Source: Acinetobacter tjernbergiae DSM 14971 = CIP 107465
Lineage (GTDB): Bacteria; Pseudomonadota; Gammaproteobacteria; Pseudomonadales; Moraxellaceae
Assembly: GCF_000374425.1 (NCBI RefSeq)
Contig: NZ_KB894368.1
Coordinates: 1-64,000, forward strand
Length of the DNA stretch: 64,000 nt
Direction: 5' to 3'
The stretch's first letter is position 1. Each line of letters starts with the position of its first letter. Below the pieces are notes generated by a model, which ran no database searches, was not told where the DNA came from, and saw only the letters and a program-made list of their open reading frames with translations. The position numbers and the translations under genes were made by a program. Below are positions 2,695 through 59,531 of the stretch, piece by piece.

Positions 2695-2813
2695 TAAAAA
2701 AGCCCCGACATCCTGTCGAGGCTTTCTCATATTTGGTTTCTTGCCGCCAACTCCTGTCAACGACCACATCCTGTGTTTCTTGTTATTCTGAATGAGACAT
2801 CCTGTCTCTCTGT
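2695..2813 (-). ncRNA. Rsm/CsrB-type small RNA, copy 1
   Basis: Read on the minus strand, about 119 nt from 2813 to 2695 contain four ACAGGA motifs. Three are exact ACAGGAUGU (complements at 2797-2805, 2766-2774 and 2708-2716), and the fourth is a GACAGGAGUU variant (2749-2757). The three exact ones sit in hairpin loops: stems GAGAC/GUCUC, CAC/GUG and CUCGAC/GUCGGG. The last hairpin is followed by a U run, so it doubles as an intrinsic terminator. ACAGGAUGU is the known binding consensus of CsrA/RsmA. A GacA-box-like palindrome lies upstream at 2871-2888. The start is inferred from a TAATCT -10-like box at 2821-2826; a TATACT at 2844-2849 would give a longer RNA. I infer an RsmY/RsmZ-like RNA that sequesters RsmA/CsrA. 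Confidence 0.72.
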
Positions 2814-2870
2814 AATGAATAGATTAAGTCAATTCTGTTATTCAGTATATTCGGCAATCACTGCAGTTAT

Positions 2871-2888
2871 TGTAGGCTTTTGCTTACA
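2871..2888 (-). promoter_or_regulatory. GacA-box-like upstream activating sequence, sRNA copy 1
   Basis: On the minus strand this reads TGTAAG-CAAAAG-CCTACA, one mismatch from the GacA consensus TGTAAG-N6-CTTACA known from Pseudomonas rsm genes. Its centre lies about 66 bases upstream of the inferred sRNA start, the same spacing as in copy 2. No good -35 box is present, as expected for an activator-dependent promoter. It lies in the short gap downstream of the second transglycosylase gene. Confidence 0.7.
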
Positions 2889-2896
2889 ATAGGACT

Positions 2897-3460
2897 TTAT
2901 AGCGCTTCTTTTAAGCTTTGTTCATGGCGTTTGACCGAGCTGGCATAGCGTTCAGCTTGCTGGCGCATATAGGGACTTCTTCTGTAACCTGTAGGGCCAA
3001 CATTGTAGTAGCCGAGAGCTTTTGACCAATCACCTGTCGATTGATAGTAGTTTGCCAGAATATAGGCACCACAATTGATGTTGACGTGTTCATCATATAA
3101 ATCACCAGGGCAGAACTGTTGCCAGAATTTTGGGCGTACTTGGGTTAAACCTACGGCATCTGCTGAAGACCGTGCACGAGTTCTATAGCTAGATTCTTGA
3201 CGAATTAGCGCAGCCAATAAATGTGGTGAAATATTATGACGCTCAGCTGTTTGCAGGATGATTGGAGCAACTCGATTTGCGGTTGTTGGTGATACTGAAA
3301 AAGCGTTTTGAATACCAGAAGACAGTTTTTGGGAGTGATTTACTGTAGGTGCTTTGGTTGTCGTACACGCGACAGTGAAGTACGTACTTAAAAAAATGAG
3401 ACTCAATTTAGCAAAAGTAATGTGAAAGCGAGAAAAAGAAAAGTTTTTGTAAATTATCAT
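2897..3460 (-). CDS. Lytic transglycosylase domain lipoprotein (copy 2)
   Basis: This is a paralogue of the gene at 2016-2558, with 187 residues. The signal peptide ends in the lipobox TVAC (C32). The same SLT domain follows: ALIRQES with catalytic E89, AVGLTQV, NVNINCG and YYNVGPTG. The shared segments SSGIQNAFSVSPTTANR and KRHEQSLKEAL match copy 1 closely, while the N-terminus differs. The likely role is local peptidoglycan cleavage or remodelling at the outer membrane. It is preceded at about 100 bp by sRNA copy 2 and followed by the GacA-like box of copy 1, so the unit sRNA plus transglycosylase is tandemly duplicated. A GlcNAc/MurNAc-cleaving function is inferred from the family only. 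Confidence 0.85.
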   Translation of the reverse strand: MIIYKNFSFSRFHITFAKLSLIFLSTYFTVACTTTKAPTVNHSQKLSSGIQNAFSVSPTTANRVAPIILQTAERHNISPHLLAALIRQESSYRTRARSSADAVGLTQVRPKFWQQFCPGDLYDEHVNINCGAYILANYYQSTGDWSKALGYYNVGPTGYRRSPYMRQQAERYASSVKRHEQSLKEAL

Positions 3461-3572
3461 CGTAGAAAAATTTGACCGTCATTTATAAAACATGCGGATG
3501 GTAGGGAGCAAGTCGATGACAGTCAATGCAATCTATAGAGGTAAATCGTTTAGTTTTAGATATTAAGCTGAA

Positions 3573-3691
3573 TAAAAAAGCCCCGACATCCTGTCGAGGC
3601 TTTCTCATATTTGGTTTCTTGCCGCCAACTCCTGTCAACGACCACATCCTGTGTTTCTTGTTGTTCTGAATGAGACATCCTGTCTCTCTAT
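3573..3691 (-). ncRNA. Rsm/CsrB-type small RNA, copy 2
   Basis: This is a near-exact repeat of the element at 2695-2813, with one base difference over about 117 nt. It has the same ACAGGAUGU hairpins (complements at 3675-3683, 3644-3652 and 3586-3594), the ACAGGAGUU variant at 3627-3635 and the GGA-loop terminator. The inferred -10 box is TAATAT at 3699-3704, and a GacA-box-like palindrome lies at 3749-3766. Upstream promoter DNA and the adjacent protein genes have diverged much more than the RNA body. This suggests strong constraint on the RNA or gene conversion between the copies. The function is inferred as titration of RsmA/CsrA. Confidence 0.72.
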
Positions 3692-3748: not shown

Positions 3749-3766
3749 TGTAGGCTTTTACTTACA
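3749..3766 (-). promoter_or_regulatory. GacA-box-like upstream activating sequence, sRNA copy 2
   Basis: The minus strand reads TGTAAG-TAAAAG-CCTACA, one mismatch from TGTAAG-N6-CTTACA. It is centred about 66 bases upstream of the inferred start of sRNA copy 2, matching copy 1. The half-sites are conserved between the two copies. Confidence 0.7.
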
Positions 3767-9025: not shown

Positions 9026-11410
9026 ATGTCTACTGCCTATACCATGCAGACCGCGCCCAAAGCGTTGTTTGATTACGACAAATATTGGGCGTCGTGTTTT
9101 GAACCCGCACCATTTTTGCCGATGTCACGAGAAGAGATGGATCAACTCGGTTGGGATGCGTGTGACTTTATTTTGGTTTGTGGTGATGCCTATATCGACC
9201 ATCCATCGTTTGTATCGGGCGTGATCGGTCGCGTACTCGAAGCACAAGGTTTCCGTGTTGGAATTATTGCACAACCAGATTGGACCAATGCTGAAAGTTT
9301 CCGTGTCTTGGGCAAACCAACAATTGCATGGGGAGTTACCGCAGGCAATATGGATTCGATGATTAACCGTTATACGGCAGATCGTAAAATTCGTTCGGAT
9401 GATGCTTATTCGCCAAATAATGAAGCGAATAAACGCCCTGACCGTGCAGCAACGGTTTATTGCCAACGTTGTCGTGAAGCTTTTCCTGATGTGCCTGTCC
9501 TACTCGGTGGGATTGAGGCGAGTTTACGCCGTATTGCTCATTACGATTATTGGTCTGATAAAGTACGCCGTTCGGTTTTAATGGATTCAAAAGCGGATCT
9601 ATTAATGTATGGCAATGGTGAACGTTCGATTATCGAAGTGATGCATCGTTTGGCGAAGGGTGAAAAAGTCCAAGATATTACTGACGTTCGTGGCACGGCA
9701 TTTATTGTGAATAAACATAATAAAAAGTCTAAAGCCAAATTCGTTGAAATTGCGAGTAATGATGTCGATACCATCGGGCGTGTTGATCAGATTATTAACC
9801 CGTATGTGATGACGGAAGATATTGATGGTTGTGAAGTTGAAAAAGAAAAAGGCAACTCACTAGCACAGTATCAGAACTTCCAAAAAGAGATCGTTGCCAA
9901 TCCAATTGTGCGTGAAGGCGATAAGTTAGATCCAGATACGCAAATTGTGCAGTTAAGACCTGCGCCCTCAAAAGCAATTAAGCATAAATTGCCACCACGT
10001 GAATTTGCAGTCATTCGTTTACCTTCATTTGAAGAAGTGGCGAATGATCAAGTACTTTATGCACATGCCAACCGTATTCTGCATTTAGAAACCAACCCCG
10101 GTAATGCCCGTGCATTGGTACAGCGTCATGGTGAACGTGATGTTTGGATTAACCCACCTCCTATTCCTCTCATGACCGAGGAAATGGACTATGTGTTTGA
10201 TTTACCTTATGCACGTTTACCGCATCCAGCGTATGGCGATGCCCGTTTCCCTGCATTTGATATGATCAAGTTCTCGGTCAATATCATGCGTGGTTGTTTT
10301 GGTGGATGTACCTTCTGTTCGATTACCGAGCATGAAGGTCGTATTATTCAAAACCGTTCTGAAGATTCGATTTTGCGTGAAATCGAAAAAATTCGTGATA
10401 CTGCACCTCAATTTACAGGCATTATTTCGGACTTAGGTGGCCCAACTGCAAACATGTATCGTTTGCACTGTAATGATCCTGAGATTGAAAAGAACTGCCG
10501 TAAACCGTCTTGTGTTTATCCAGGTGTTTGCCAAAACTTACATACCGATCATGCACCATTGGTTCAGCTTTATCGTAAAGCACGTGAAATCAAAGGTGTG
10601 AAGAAGATTCTGATTGGTTCAGGTTTGCGTTATGACTTGGCTGTACTCAACCCTGAGTATGTCAAAGAACTGGTACAGCACCATGTGGGTGGTTATTTAA
10701 AAATTGCGCCTGAACATACCGAGCAAGGTCCATTGTCGAAGATGATGAAACCGGGAATTGGGACGTATGATCGTTTTAAACAAATGTTTGAGCGTTTCAG
10801 TAAGGAAGCAGGGAAGGAACAATATTTAATTCCTTACTTTATTGCGGCGCATCCAGGTACGACCGACTATGACATGATGAACTTGGCGATTTGGTTGAAA
10901 AAGAATGGTTTCCGTGCCGATCAGGTACAAACCTTCTATCCATCACCTATGGCAACCGCAACGACGATGTACTACACAGGTAAGAATCCACTCTCTAAAG
11001 TGGCGCGTTATACTGAAAATGTCGATATTGTGAAAGGTGAAAAACGCCGTCGTTTACATAAAGCATTTTTACGTTACCATGATCCAAATAACTGGCCTTT
11101 ATTGCGTGAAGCTTTAAAAGAAATGGGGCGGGTAGATTTAATCGGAAATTCAAAACAACATTTGATTCCGACCTATCAGCCACAAGGTACGGCTGAGGGT
11201 GAATATAAGTCTGCACGTAAGAAAAACTCGACCGTTGCTGGTGATTCGGCAAAACGTTCTGAACAAGGACAATCACGTCCGCAGTCGGGTCAAAAAAGAC
11301 CACAAAAAGGTCAAATACTCACGCAACATACAGGGTTGCCACCGCGTGAAACGGGTGAGAAAAGACCATTTTCAGGGAAGCCAAAGTCGAAGTCTAAAGC
11401 ACCGCGTTAA
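9026..11410 (+). CDS. ygiQ: YgiQ family radical SAM protein
   Basis: This large (794-residue) member of the YgiQ/UPF0313 family has an N-terminal domain followed by a radical SAM core. The [4Fe-4S] cluster motif CX3CX2C is at C424, C428 and C431 ([12 protein letters not shown]). A further cysteine group ([11 protein letters not shown]) lies about 65 residues later. The C-terminal tail from about residue 725 is basic and low-complexity (rich in Lys, Arg, Ser and Gln), typical of this family and possibly nucleic-acid binding. The reaction is not established. The gene is followed by a terminator at 11421-11454. Confidence 0.92.
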
Positions 11411-58895: not shown

Positions 58896-59531
58896 TTAAG
58901 GTTTAATGAGCCCATAACGAATGGCGAGATGGGTCAGTTTAACATCACTATCAATCGCTAGTTTTTCAAAAATCCGATAGCGATAGGTATTCACAGTTTT
59001 AACACTCACAAACAATTTATCTGCGATTTCCTGAGCACTTATACAGTTCACGACCATCATCGCTACTTGCATTTCACGTTCTGAAAGTGCATCAAAAGGA
59101 GATTGTTGCGTATCTGAAAGATATGAACTAGCAAGTTGTTCTGCAATATCGGCACTGAAATATTTACCACCTTGCATCACTTTATTAATTGCACGCACCA
59201 TCTCTAAAATCGGTGCGCCTTTGGTAATATAACCTTTTGCACCTGCCTTTAATAACAGCGATGGATAAGGCTCTTCAGCTAAACCACTGACCGCGATTAC
59301 TTTGGTTTCTGGCGCAGTTTGTAATAGGCGGCGTGTTGTTTCTACGCCACCAATCCCAGGCATGTTGACATCGAGTAGTACAACTTGAGGATGTTTTTGG
59401 CGAACTAAAGCAATTGCTTCTTCTCCAGATTCAGCTTGTCCAACGACCTCTACATCTGGGTGGTCTTCCAACATACGACAAATACCTGTACGTACGAGTT
59501 CATGATCATCAACAATGAGAACAGTGATCAA
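58896..59531 (-). CDS. gacA: Response regulator GacA (UvrY)
   Basis: GacA, activated by GacS/BarA, turns on transcription of small RNAs that sequester RsmA/CsrA. I choose the TTG at 59531, preceded by AAGGAGGT 4 bases away, giving a 211-residue protein that begins MITVLIVDDHELVRTGI like known GacA. The receiver domain has D8, D9 and phospho-acceptor D54 (VVLLDVNMPG). A LuxR-type helix-turn-helix lies at about residues 145-205, with LSEREMQVAMMVVN and VSVKTVNTYRYRIFEKL. Its expected targets are the sRNA elements at 2.7 and 3.6 kb. Confidence 0.92.
   Translation of the reverse strand: MITVLIVDDHELVRTGICRMLEDHPDVEVVGQAESGEEAIALVRQKHPQVVLLDVNMPGIGGVETTRRLLQTAPETKVIAVSGLAEEPYPSLLLKAGAKGYITKGAPILEMVRAINKVMQGGKYFSADIAEQLASSYLSDTQQSPFDALSEREMQVAMMVVNCISAQEIADKLFVSVKTVNTYRYRIFEKLAIDSDVKLTHLAIRYGLIKP

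Follow-up and report, generated by a model that had tools for sequence, protein, structure and literature searches.

A putative multicopy CsrA-sponge RNA of Acinetobacter, preceded by a GacA-type box and carried in part on plasmids

CsrA/RsmA binds A(N)GGA presented in hairpin loops, and RNAs of the Rsm and Csr type offer several such sites. A preliminary description of the 64-kb stretch of Acinetobacter DNA analysed here (the window) placed a small RNA gene of this type on its minus strand, which raises the question of whether the locus specifies a sponge for CsrA, a leader of the neighbouring gene or a regulatory RNA of another kind. We assign a probability of about 0.88 to the reading that positions 2696–2812 (minus strand) are a chromosomal non-coding RNA gene of approximately 117–120 nt, encoding a GacA-activated CsrA sponge. 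This reading is drawn from sequence comparisons within the genome and across the genus.

Hairpins and gene neighbourhood of the unit at 2696–2812

The 5′ part of the unit (copy 1) would begin near 2813, and its 3′ end is a T run at 2696. It matches the covariance model of the family, R1, with 134 bits (E 8.9e-20), and is itself a member of the R1 training set. Four hairpins carry GGA in their loops, three with the exact motif ACAGGAUGU, one of these being the terminator, and one with GACAGGAGUU. Hairpin 1 (GAGAC-AGGAT-GTCTC, 2794–2808), hairpin 2 (CAC-AGGAT-GTG, 2765–2775) and hairpin 3 (GTCGTTGAC-AGGA-GTTGGCGGC, 2743–2764), whose loop is the variant motif GACAGGAGTT, are all on the minus strand and were identified by folding and covariation; the intrinsic terminator hairpin (2696–2723, minus strand), with an AGGAT loop and a T run, was identified by sequence, fold and covariation. 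On the minus strand the exact motif ACAGGATGT is found at 2708–2716, in the loop of the terminator, and at 2766–2774 and 2797–2805. Three exact motifs, a variant and a terminator presenting GGA had all been claimed, and all are present, but the terminator loop already figures among the exact motifs, so that there is no separate fifth site and the total is four.

Folding of 2692–2814 placed GGA in all four hairpin loops; the structure has an energy of -42.3 kcal/mol (z = -6.59), and none of 200 shuffled sequences was equally stable. The fold of a sister copy in the window (copy 2) has a z-score of -5.84, and exact ACAGGATGT occurs on its minus strand at 3586, 3644 and 3675. All six exact occurrences in the 64-kb window fall within these two copies, against 0.52 expected by chance, and six were reached in none of 100 shuffles. 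The earlier placing of the motifs in hairpin loops is thus borne out by the fold and by the motif count.

Copy 2 (3574–3690, minus strand; R1 135.4 bits, E 5.0e-20, also within the training set) is 87–88% identical to copy 1 over the RNA and the box and upstream DNA. The two copies belong to a tandem repeat of approximately 880 bp, in the order copy 2, a lytic-transglycosylase-like gene (2897–3460), copy 1 and a gene for a lytic-transglycosylase-like lipoprotein (2016–2558), with both genes also on the minus strand. The two proteins are 57% identical; matches of the gene between the copies are weak and below the family cut-offs, and those of the gene downstream of copy 1 are well below them. 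A 5S rRNA gene (111–225) precedes the sRNA pair by approximately 2.5 kb.

Both window copies therefore lie directly upstream of a lytic-transglycosylase-like gene, in the same direction and within the tandem repeat, an arrangement that would suit a 5′ leader or attenuator acting in cis on that gene, through CsrA binding or early termination. We consider such a role very improbable. It is disfavoured because, on the large contigs C9 and C12 of the same genome, which together hold four copies, the next downstream ORF of at least 110 aa runs towards the RNA in every case; in addition, the terminator stands approximately 140 nt ahead of the lytic-transglycosylase-like start codon, and box, RNA and terminator are conserved across loci as a whole unit. 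Only one listed ORF of at least 60 aa, at 2016–2711, overlaps copy 1, extending into the terminator. We read it as the downstream gene with its start called too early, the true start being at 2558, where a signal-peptide-like sequence is found. The small RNA is a free-standing intergenic non-coding unit with an intrinsic terminator.

Conservation of loops, stems and upstream box

An alignment of 32 sRNA rows (31 distinct) was assembled from six copies of the same genome, two plasmids and Acinetobacter relatives, and the covariance model R1 was built from it. In this alignment 97.5% of cells pair in the proposed structure, compared with 35–48% (maximum 47.8%) when the structure is slid along the rows. 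Changes on both sides of a pair were seen in 11 pairs, against 7.9 in shuffled alignments, with 11 reached in 6 of 500 shuffles; double changes were found in 72 cells against 20.3, and the covariation score was reached by none of 500 shuffles. Further pair types, at 27, did not exceed chance (25.8 in shuffles, with 164 of 500 as high). These shuffles ignore the relatedness of the rows, and the slid controls hence count too. AGGA is invariant or nearly so in all four loops. Covariation across Acinetobacter had been proposed as a check on this RNA, and both it and the conservation of the GGA loops in homologues are found: the stems undergo compensatory change and the GGA loop stays fixed. We favour a CsrA sponge because frozen loops on stems that are free to covary are the pattern of selection predicted by that mechanism.

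The same pattern bears on whether the RNA might be a base-pairing sRNA of the Hfq type, with the GGA loops pairing to mRNAs instead of binding CsrA. A compact sRNA ending in a terminator and T run would fit such a role, and GGA or AGGA could pair with UCC-type sites. What is conserved, however, is the CsrA recognition core, displayed in the loops of hairpins with covarying stems, which is the opposite of an open seed, and a GacA-type box lies upstream; we regard a base-pairing role as highly unlikely.

In the genome of origin R1 identified eight copies with E values of 5e-10 or below, the next best match having E 0.148. They are the two window copies (contig C16), C12:123915, C12:36912, C12:38334, C9:1857, C39:328 and C34:5721. 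Six belong to the training set, with C12:123915 and C9:1857 outside it, and the paralogue C12:38334 has lost the GGA of hairpin 1. Across Acinetobacter, R1 had between 1 and 14 matches in each of 170 genomes out of 175 and none in the other five. When 249 genomes drawn from 16 genera of the family were searched with strict filters, 88 matched, all of them Acinetobacter, and there were no matches in the 15 other genera. A gapped DNA pattern, run against species genomes, matched at least 116 stretches; among the 80 matches listed, 78 bear an Acinetobacter name, the other two names being Stutzerimonas and a Pseudomonas mendocina contig (EF27-219). The Stutzerimonas match (L157) shows neither a T run nor a box in the sequence examined and was rejected as a chance match. 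The contig labelled P. mendocina EF27 (L197, 4057–4107) has an Acinetobacter plasmid-type copy with its box, reflecting either transfer or contamination. Short BLAST matches (query approximately 149–197) cover little beyond the terminator and were not accepted as copies; copy counts were taken from the covariance model and exclude them. The family would thus be a member of the CsrA-sponge class that is unrecognised by Rfam, multicopy and in part plasmid-borne, confined in these searches to Acinetobacter plus one contig labelled Pseudomonas.

The GacA-type box of copy 1, TGTAAGCAAAAGCCTACA, is located at 2871–2888 (minus strand), and that of copy 2, TGTAAGTAAAAGCCTACA, at 3749–3766 (minus strand). 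A probable -10 element, TAATCT (2821–2826, minus strand), is aligned with TAAT/TATC-type elements in the paralogues, and would put the start of copy 1 near 2813 and the centre of the box at about -66. Within the window a single box is close to chance expectation (five sites with two mismatches or fewer, against 3.2 expected, and at least five in 21 shuffles). The case for the box was made on its conservation at a fixed spacing, because a box alone proves nothing within one window. Box conservation inside the 32-row alignment is no evidence, because the rows were selected for a box-like TGT/ACA element together with the CGACAGGA terminator; the model R1 itself excludes upstream DNA.

We therefore examined the DNA upstream of R1 matches. 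From 56 matches in 51 loci, three were dropped (one truncated and two low-scoring overlaps on the opposite strand), leaving 53 copies that were hand-picked and not random: 41 (40 loci) from the listed genus and family matches, six from a further search and six from the same genome. At least seven of the eight letters of the TGTA-N10-TACA core were present in all 53, and all eight in 44, with the best site 73–76 nt before the start of the R1 model in every copy; these copies are mutually related, so that the conservation in part reflects shared descent, and five of them are R1 training rows, for which a box-like element had been a condition of selection; 48 lie outside the training set. Shuffled upstream DNA gave a core of at least seven letters in 1.6% and a perfect core in 0.19% of cases. 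The GacA box that had been proposed upstream of copy 1 is thus upheld, its element being found at fixed spacing in every other copy examined. The strict pattern TGTAMG-N6-CKTACA occurs at nine sites in the genome, and a reversed control at none. Five of these sites precede R1 copies, one heads a second conserved RNA, and three have neither, one of the three being within a coding frame; the strict pattern misses C12:123915 and both window copies, whose half-site is CCTACA.

TGTAAG-N6-CTTACA is a known GacA/UvrY element, and the proteins expected for such a circuit have candidates in this genome. There is one CsrA, of 87 aa (118 bits against a cut-off of 73). A response regulator of the UvrY/SirA/GacA type, the candidate activator, is encoded at 58896–59528 (minus strand); NF007018 is its best match, at 263.8 bits, below the curated cut-off of 280, and the next family scores 162. 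A hybrid kinase of the BarA/GacS type at C4:54056–56407 scores 567.5 bits, below the cut-off of 890, with the next family at 117.4. Judged from sequence, csrA lies between putative aspartokinase and RNase H genes, and the GacA-type gene adjoins those for a putative histidine kinase and an NtrC-type regulator. In A. baumannii gacA is likewise beside another sensor kinase and distant from gacS (passages of PMC5295007).

The GacA-type match just under its cut-off, and the five places in the genome with a GerE domain, four of them above cut-off, would allow the box to be bound by another regulator of the LuxR/NarL type, making the RNA a CsrA sponge outside GacA control. Against this, a GacA-type regulator and a BarA-type kinase are both present and the element is the one known for GacA and UvrY, and we judge control by another regulator to be unlikely. 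Under the preferred reading, phosphorylated GacA would bind the box approximately 66 nt upstream of the start and switch on transcription, which would stop at a terminator that doubles as a CsrA site. The four hairpins would present A(N)GGA in their loops, with room for about two CsrA dimers, and the sRNA would bind and titrate the protein; with eight copies, output could be summed over many loci. The RsmA/CsrA-sequestering role first suggested for this locus, and its assignment to Acinetobacter, gain support from the GGA-loop hairpins, the covarying stems, the presence of CsrA in the genome and the placement in the genus.

Relation to known RNAs and to reported transcripts

In the window Rfam found no Csr/Rsm family at the gathering threshold, the 5S rRNA being the sole match, and the window copies had no match to the Rfam Csr/Rsm families up to E 10. 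The closest Rfam relative, found with just two copies outside the window, was RsmY, at 22.9 bits against a threshold of 57. Thr_leader (33.2 bits against 55), Phe_leader and MicC, which resemble the terminator, were below the Rfam threshold and were rejected.

Like RsmX, RsmY and RsmZ of Pseudomonas, the Acinetobacter RNA is near 120 nt in length, has several GGA-loop hairpins and a terminator, follows a TGTAAG-N6-CTTACA-type box and is encoded by several genes per genome. Unlike them, the family falls below Rfam gathering thresholds, numbers eight copies in the present genome and as many as 14 in another, and includes plasmid-borne members beside pdif sites. With CsrB and CsrC of enterobacteria and vibrios it would share the titration of CsrA through repeated GGA hairpins, but the Acinetobacter RNA is much shorter, with four sites, and the window copies match neither RNA in Rfam. 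RsmY and RsmZ have been described as protein sponges (passages of PMC9928087).

That such RNAs exist in Acinetobacter is not a new proposal: they have been predicted in A. baylyi, and sRNAs seen by RNA-seq in A. baumannii AB5075 agree with the family in position and strand. Two RsmA-regulating sRNAs have been predicted in A. baylyi ADP1, with credit given to Kulkarni 2006 for an earlier prediction (PMC5568370), and a ‘CsrB-like small RNA’ is drawn in a scheme for A. baylyi (PMC12442408). The earlier remark that the RNA had not been described clearly in this genus must therefore be qualified. For A. baumannii, a link of these RNAs to CsrA or GacA was not found in the literature searched, chiefly passages. 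One ADP1 candidate, 119 nt long, maps to approximately 25 kb on the minus strand (PMC5568370, Table 2). It probably belongs to the R1 family, because family members lie at approximately 23–26 kb on the minus strand of contigs elsewhere in the genus (G021, G072, G161 and G003); by position it would be a paralogue other than the window copy. In the passages of that paper the ADP1 predictions come with no sequence, and Acinetobacter is not analysed there for copy number, boxes or plasmids.

Four homologous sRNAs of 128–147 nt make up ‘Group 3’ in RNA-seq of A. baumannii AB5075, and the passages of PMC5320573 assign them neither a function nor a link to CsrA. They are ABUWs005 (+236,876), ABUWs061 (-3,057,837), ABUWs081 (+3,766,134) and ABUWs083 (+3,863,958). 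Genome G062 has seven R1 matches, at +230,981, -2,940,179 and +3,672,009, three clustered between +3,762,896 and +3,764,835, and the last on another contig. The strands agree with Group 3 in four cases out of four, and the spacings are 732 kb and 91–93 kb, compared with 708 kb and 98 kb. R1 matches in G007 also agree in strand and spacing, so that two of the eight genomes compared do so; the other six have no counterpart of ABUWs061, and R1 clusters in the compared genomes hold as many as three copies at places with a single listed sRNA in AB5075. This match of position and strand makes it likely that the R1 family is transcribed in A. baumannii. The four Group 3 sRNAs are not named in the main text of an Hfq RIL-seq study (PMC12802169), a weak absence that also counts against the base-pairing alternative. 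Neither the genus-wide family, nor its link with Group 3, nor plasmid copies approximately 340 nt from pdif were found in the literature searched.

Growth of A. baumannii on rich medium reportedly requires CsrA (PMC12802169), which is also reported to affect amino-acid use and compatible solutes (PMC8567240). The terms sRNA, small RNA, CsrB, CsrC, GacA and BarA, which would point to CsrA antagonists, do not occur in the latter paper's main text. A defined multicopy sponge family makes the Gac–Csr link in Acinetobacter directly testable and gives a likely function to sRNAs that RNA-seq had left without one. In a multicopy family single deletions may show nothing.

The second RNA headed by a strict box is unrelated to the first. 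It is located at C3:122604–122831 on the minus strand (L270, 1005–1232), with a perfect TGTAAG-N6-CTTACA box and a GGA-loop hairpin, and has no confident R1 match and no entry in Rfam. It has a match in all 60 Acinetobacter genomes searched, restricted to approximately the last 40 nt in G014, G026, G031 and G032, and the box is conserved in all 13 aligned top matches (13 of 14 taken, with L284 excluded as short). By rough position in AB5075 it is possibly ABUWs076 or ABUWs077.

Plasmid copies and pdif modules

The plasmid-borne location is the part of these results most worth following. The small contigs C34 and C39 each hold one of the eight copies in this genome, and C34 (6,180 bp) also carries a putative RepM-type initiator and a toxin–antitoxin pair. 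The C34 box and RNA matched 307 PLSDB records, 286 of them Acinetobacter and 95 with query coverage of 80% or more, figures that do not count intact or independent copies, as the records are redundant and include terminator-only matches and at least one chromosome-sized sequence (H93). Among 60 matches listed, 59 had no annotated feature under the match and one record had no annotation; the gene table omits RNA genes and is therefore no evidence that these RNAs lack annotation. Matches to Klebsiella, Raoultella and Enterobacter plasmids were rejected: the three Klebsiella/Enterobacter rows listed cover 21% of the query, corresponding to the terminator, and a fetched record of this group (L144) scored 37.6 bits with R1 and has no box.

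R1 was run on 17 plasmid-type sequences, comprising 15 records and contigs C34 and C39, four of the 17 being training rows. Sixteen scored at least 56 bits, and the remaining one, a Klebsiella record, is a fragment. The box core has at least seven of eight letters at 74–75 nt in 14 of the 16 plasmid copies and six of eight at that distance in one; one copy has none. A pdif-like site (three mismatches or fewer in 22) lies 326–341 nt before the RNA in 13 of 16 plasmid-type sequences, whereas shuffled plasmids had on average 0 to 0.01 such sites. Toxin–antitoxin modules bounded by pdif and containing a family member are found in L007 (905–2324), L008 (6488–7904), L130 (4764–6180) and L287 (3132–4554). 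The cargo behind the RNA varies (RelE/ParE-type, VapBC-type and other genes), and the distance from pdif to RNA is nearly constant.

In pABLAC1, R1 matched 3471–3598 with 48.3 bits, 339 nt after a pdif site (3132) and ahead of a RelE/ParE-type pair. By position this module is the published higBA2-orf69 dif module (PMC13141974); the main text of that paper contains no word beginning with ‘RNA’. The pABLAC1 copy has a perfect box (8/8) and retains AGGA in one hairpin only, and is probably a decayed sponge. GGA sites have also been lost from plasmid copies L143 and L149, and all four are kept in L008, L130, L131, L137 and L145.

These modules suggest, at somewhat short of even odds, that Acinetobacter plasmids carry mobile decoys of the host CsrA: a box and sRNA approximately 340 nt from pdif, often before a toxin–antitoxin pair, would be shuffled from plasmid to plasmid by XerC/D and would loosen CsrA repression upon the host Gac signal. 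We hold this suggestion only tentatively because the pABLAC1, L143 and L149 copies have lost GGA sites. If correct, it would provide an RNA counterpart of RsmQ, the CsrA-family protein of plasmid pQBR103 (passages of PMC9928087), which is similarly a plasmid element plugging into the host Gac–Rsm system. The two would differ in kind, RsmQ being a protein and the Acinetobacter plasmid copies RNAs that would antagonise a host protein. Should the intact plasmid copies be functional, plasmids with dif modules, among them some that bear resistance genes, would also have a means of acting on host physiology.

Some further features of plasmid-type sequences were observed. The L008 record ends in a second, 5′-truncated R1 match (10766–10832, 51.6 bits), and pMSHR_A204 is reported to have a D dif module without a predicted open reading frame (passages of PMC13141974). 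On C39 (L131, 1260–3590) an AAA ATPase with AriA/PtuA-type defence matches lies beside the sRNA copy, and its 365-aa partner has no match in NCBIfam or PADLOC. C34 (L130, 1826–3670) encodes, on the same contig as its sRNA copy, a 614-aa ATPase with AriA and Old/GajA-type defence matches.
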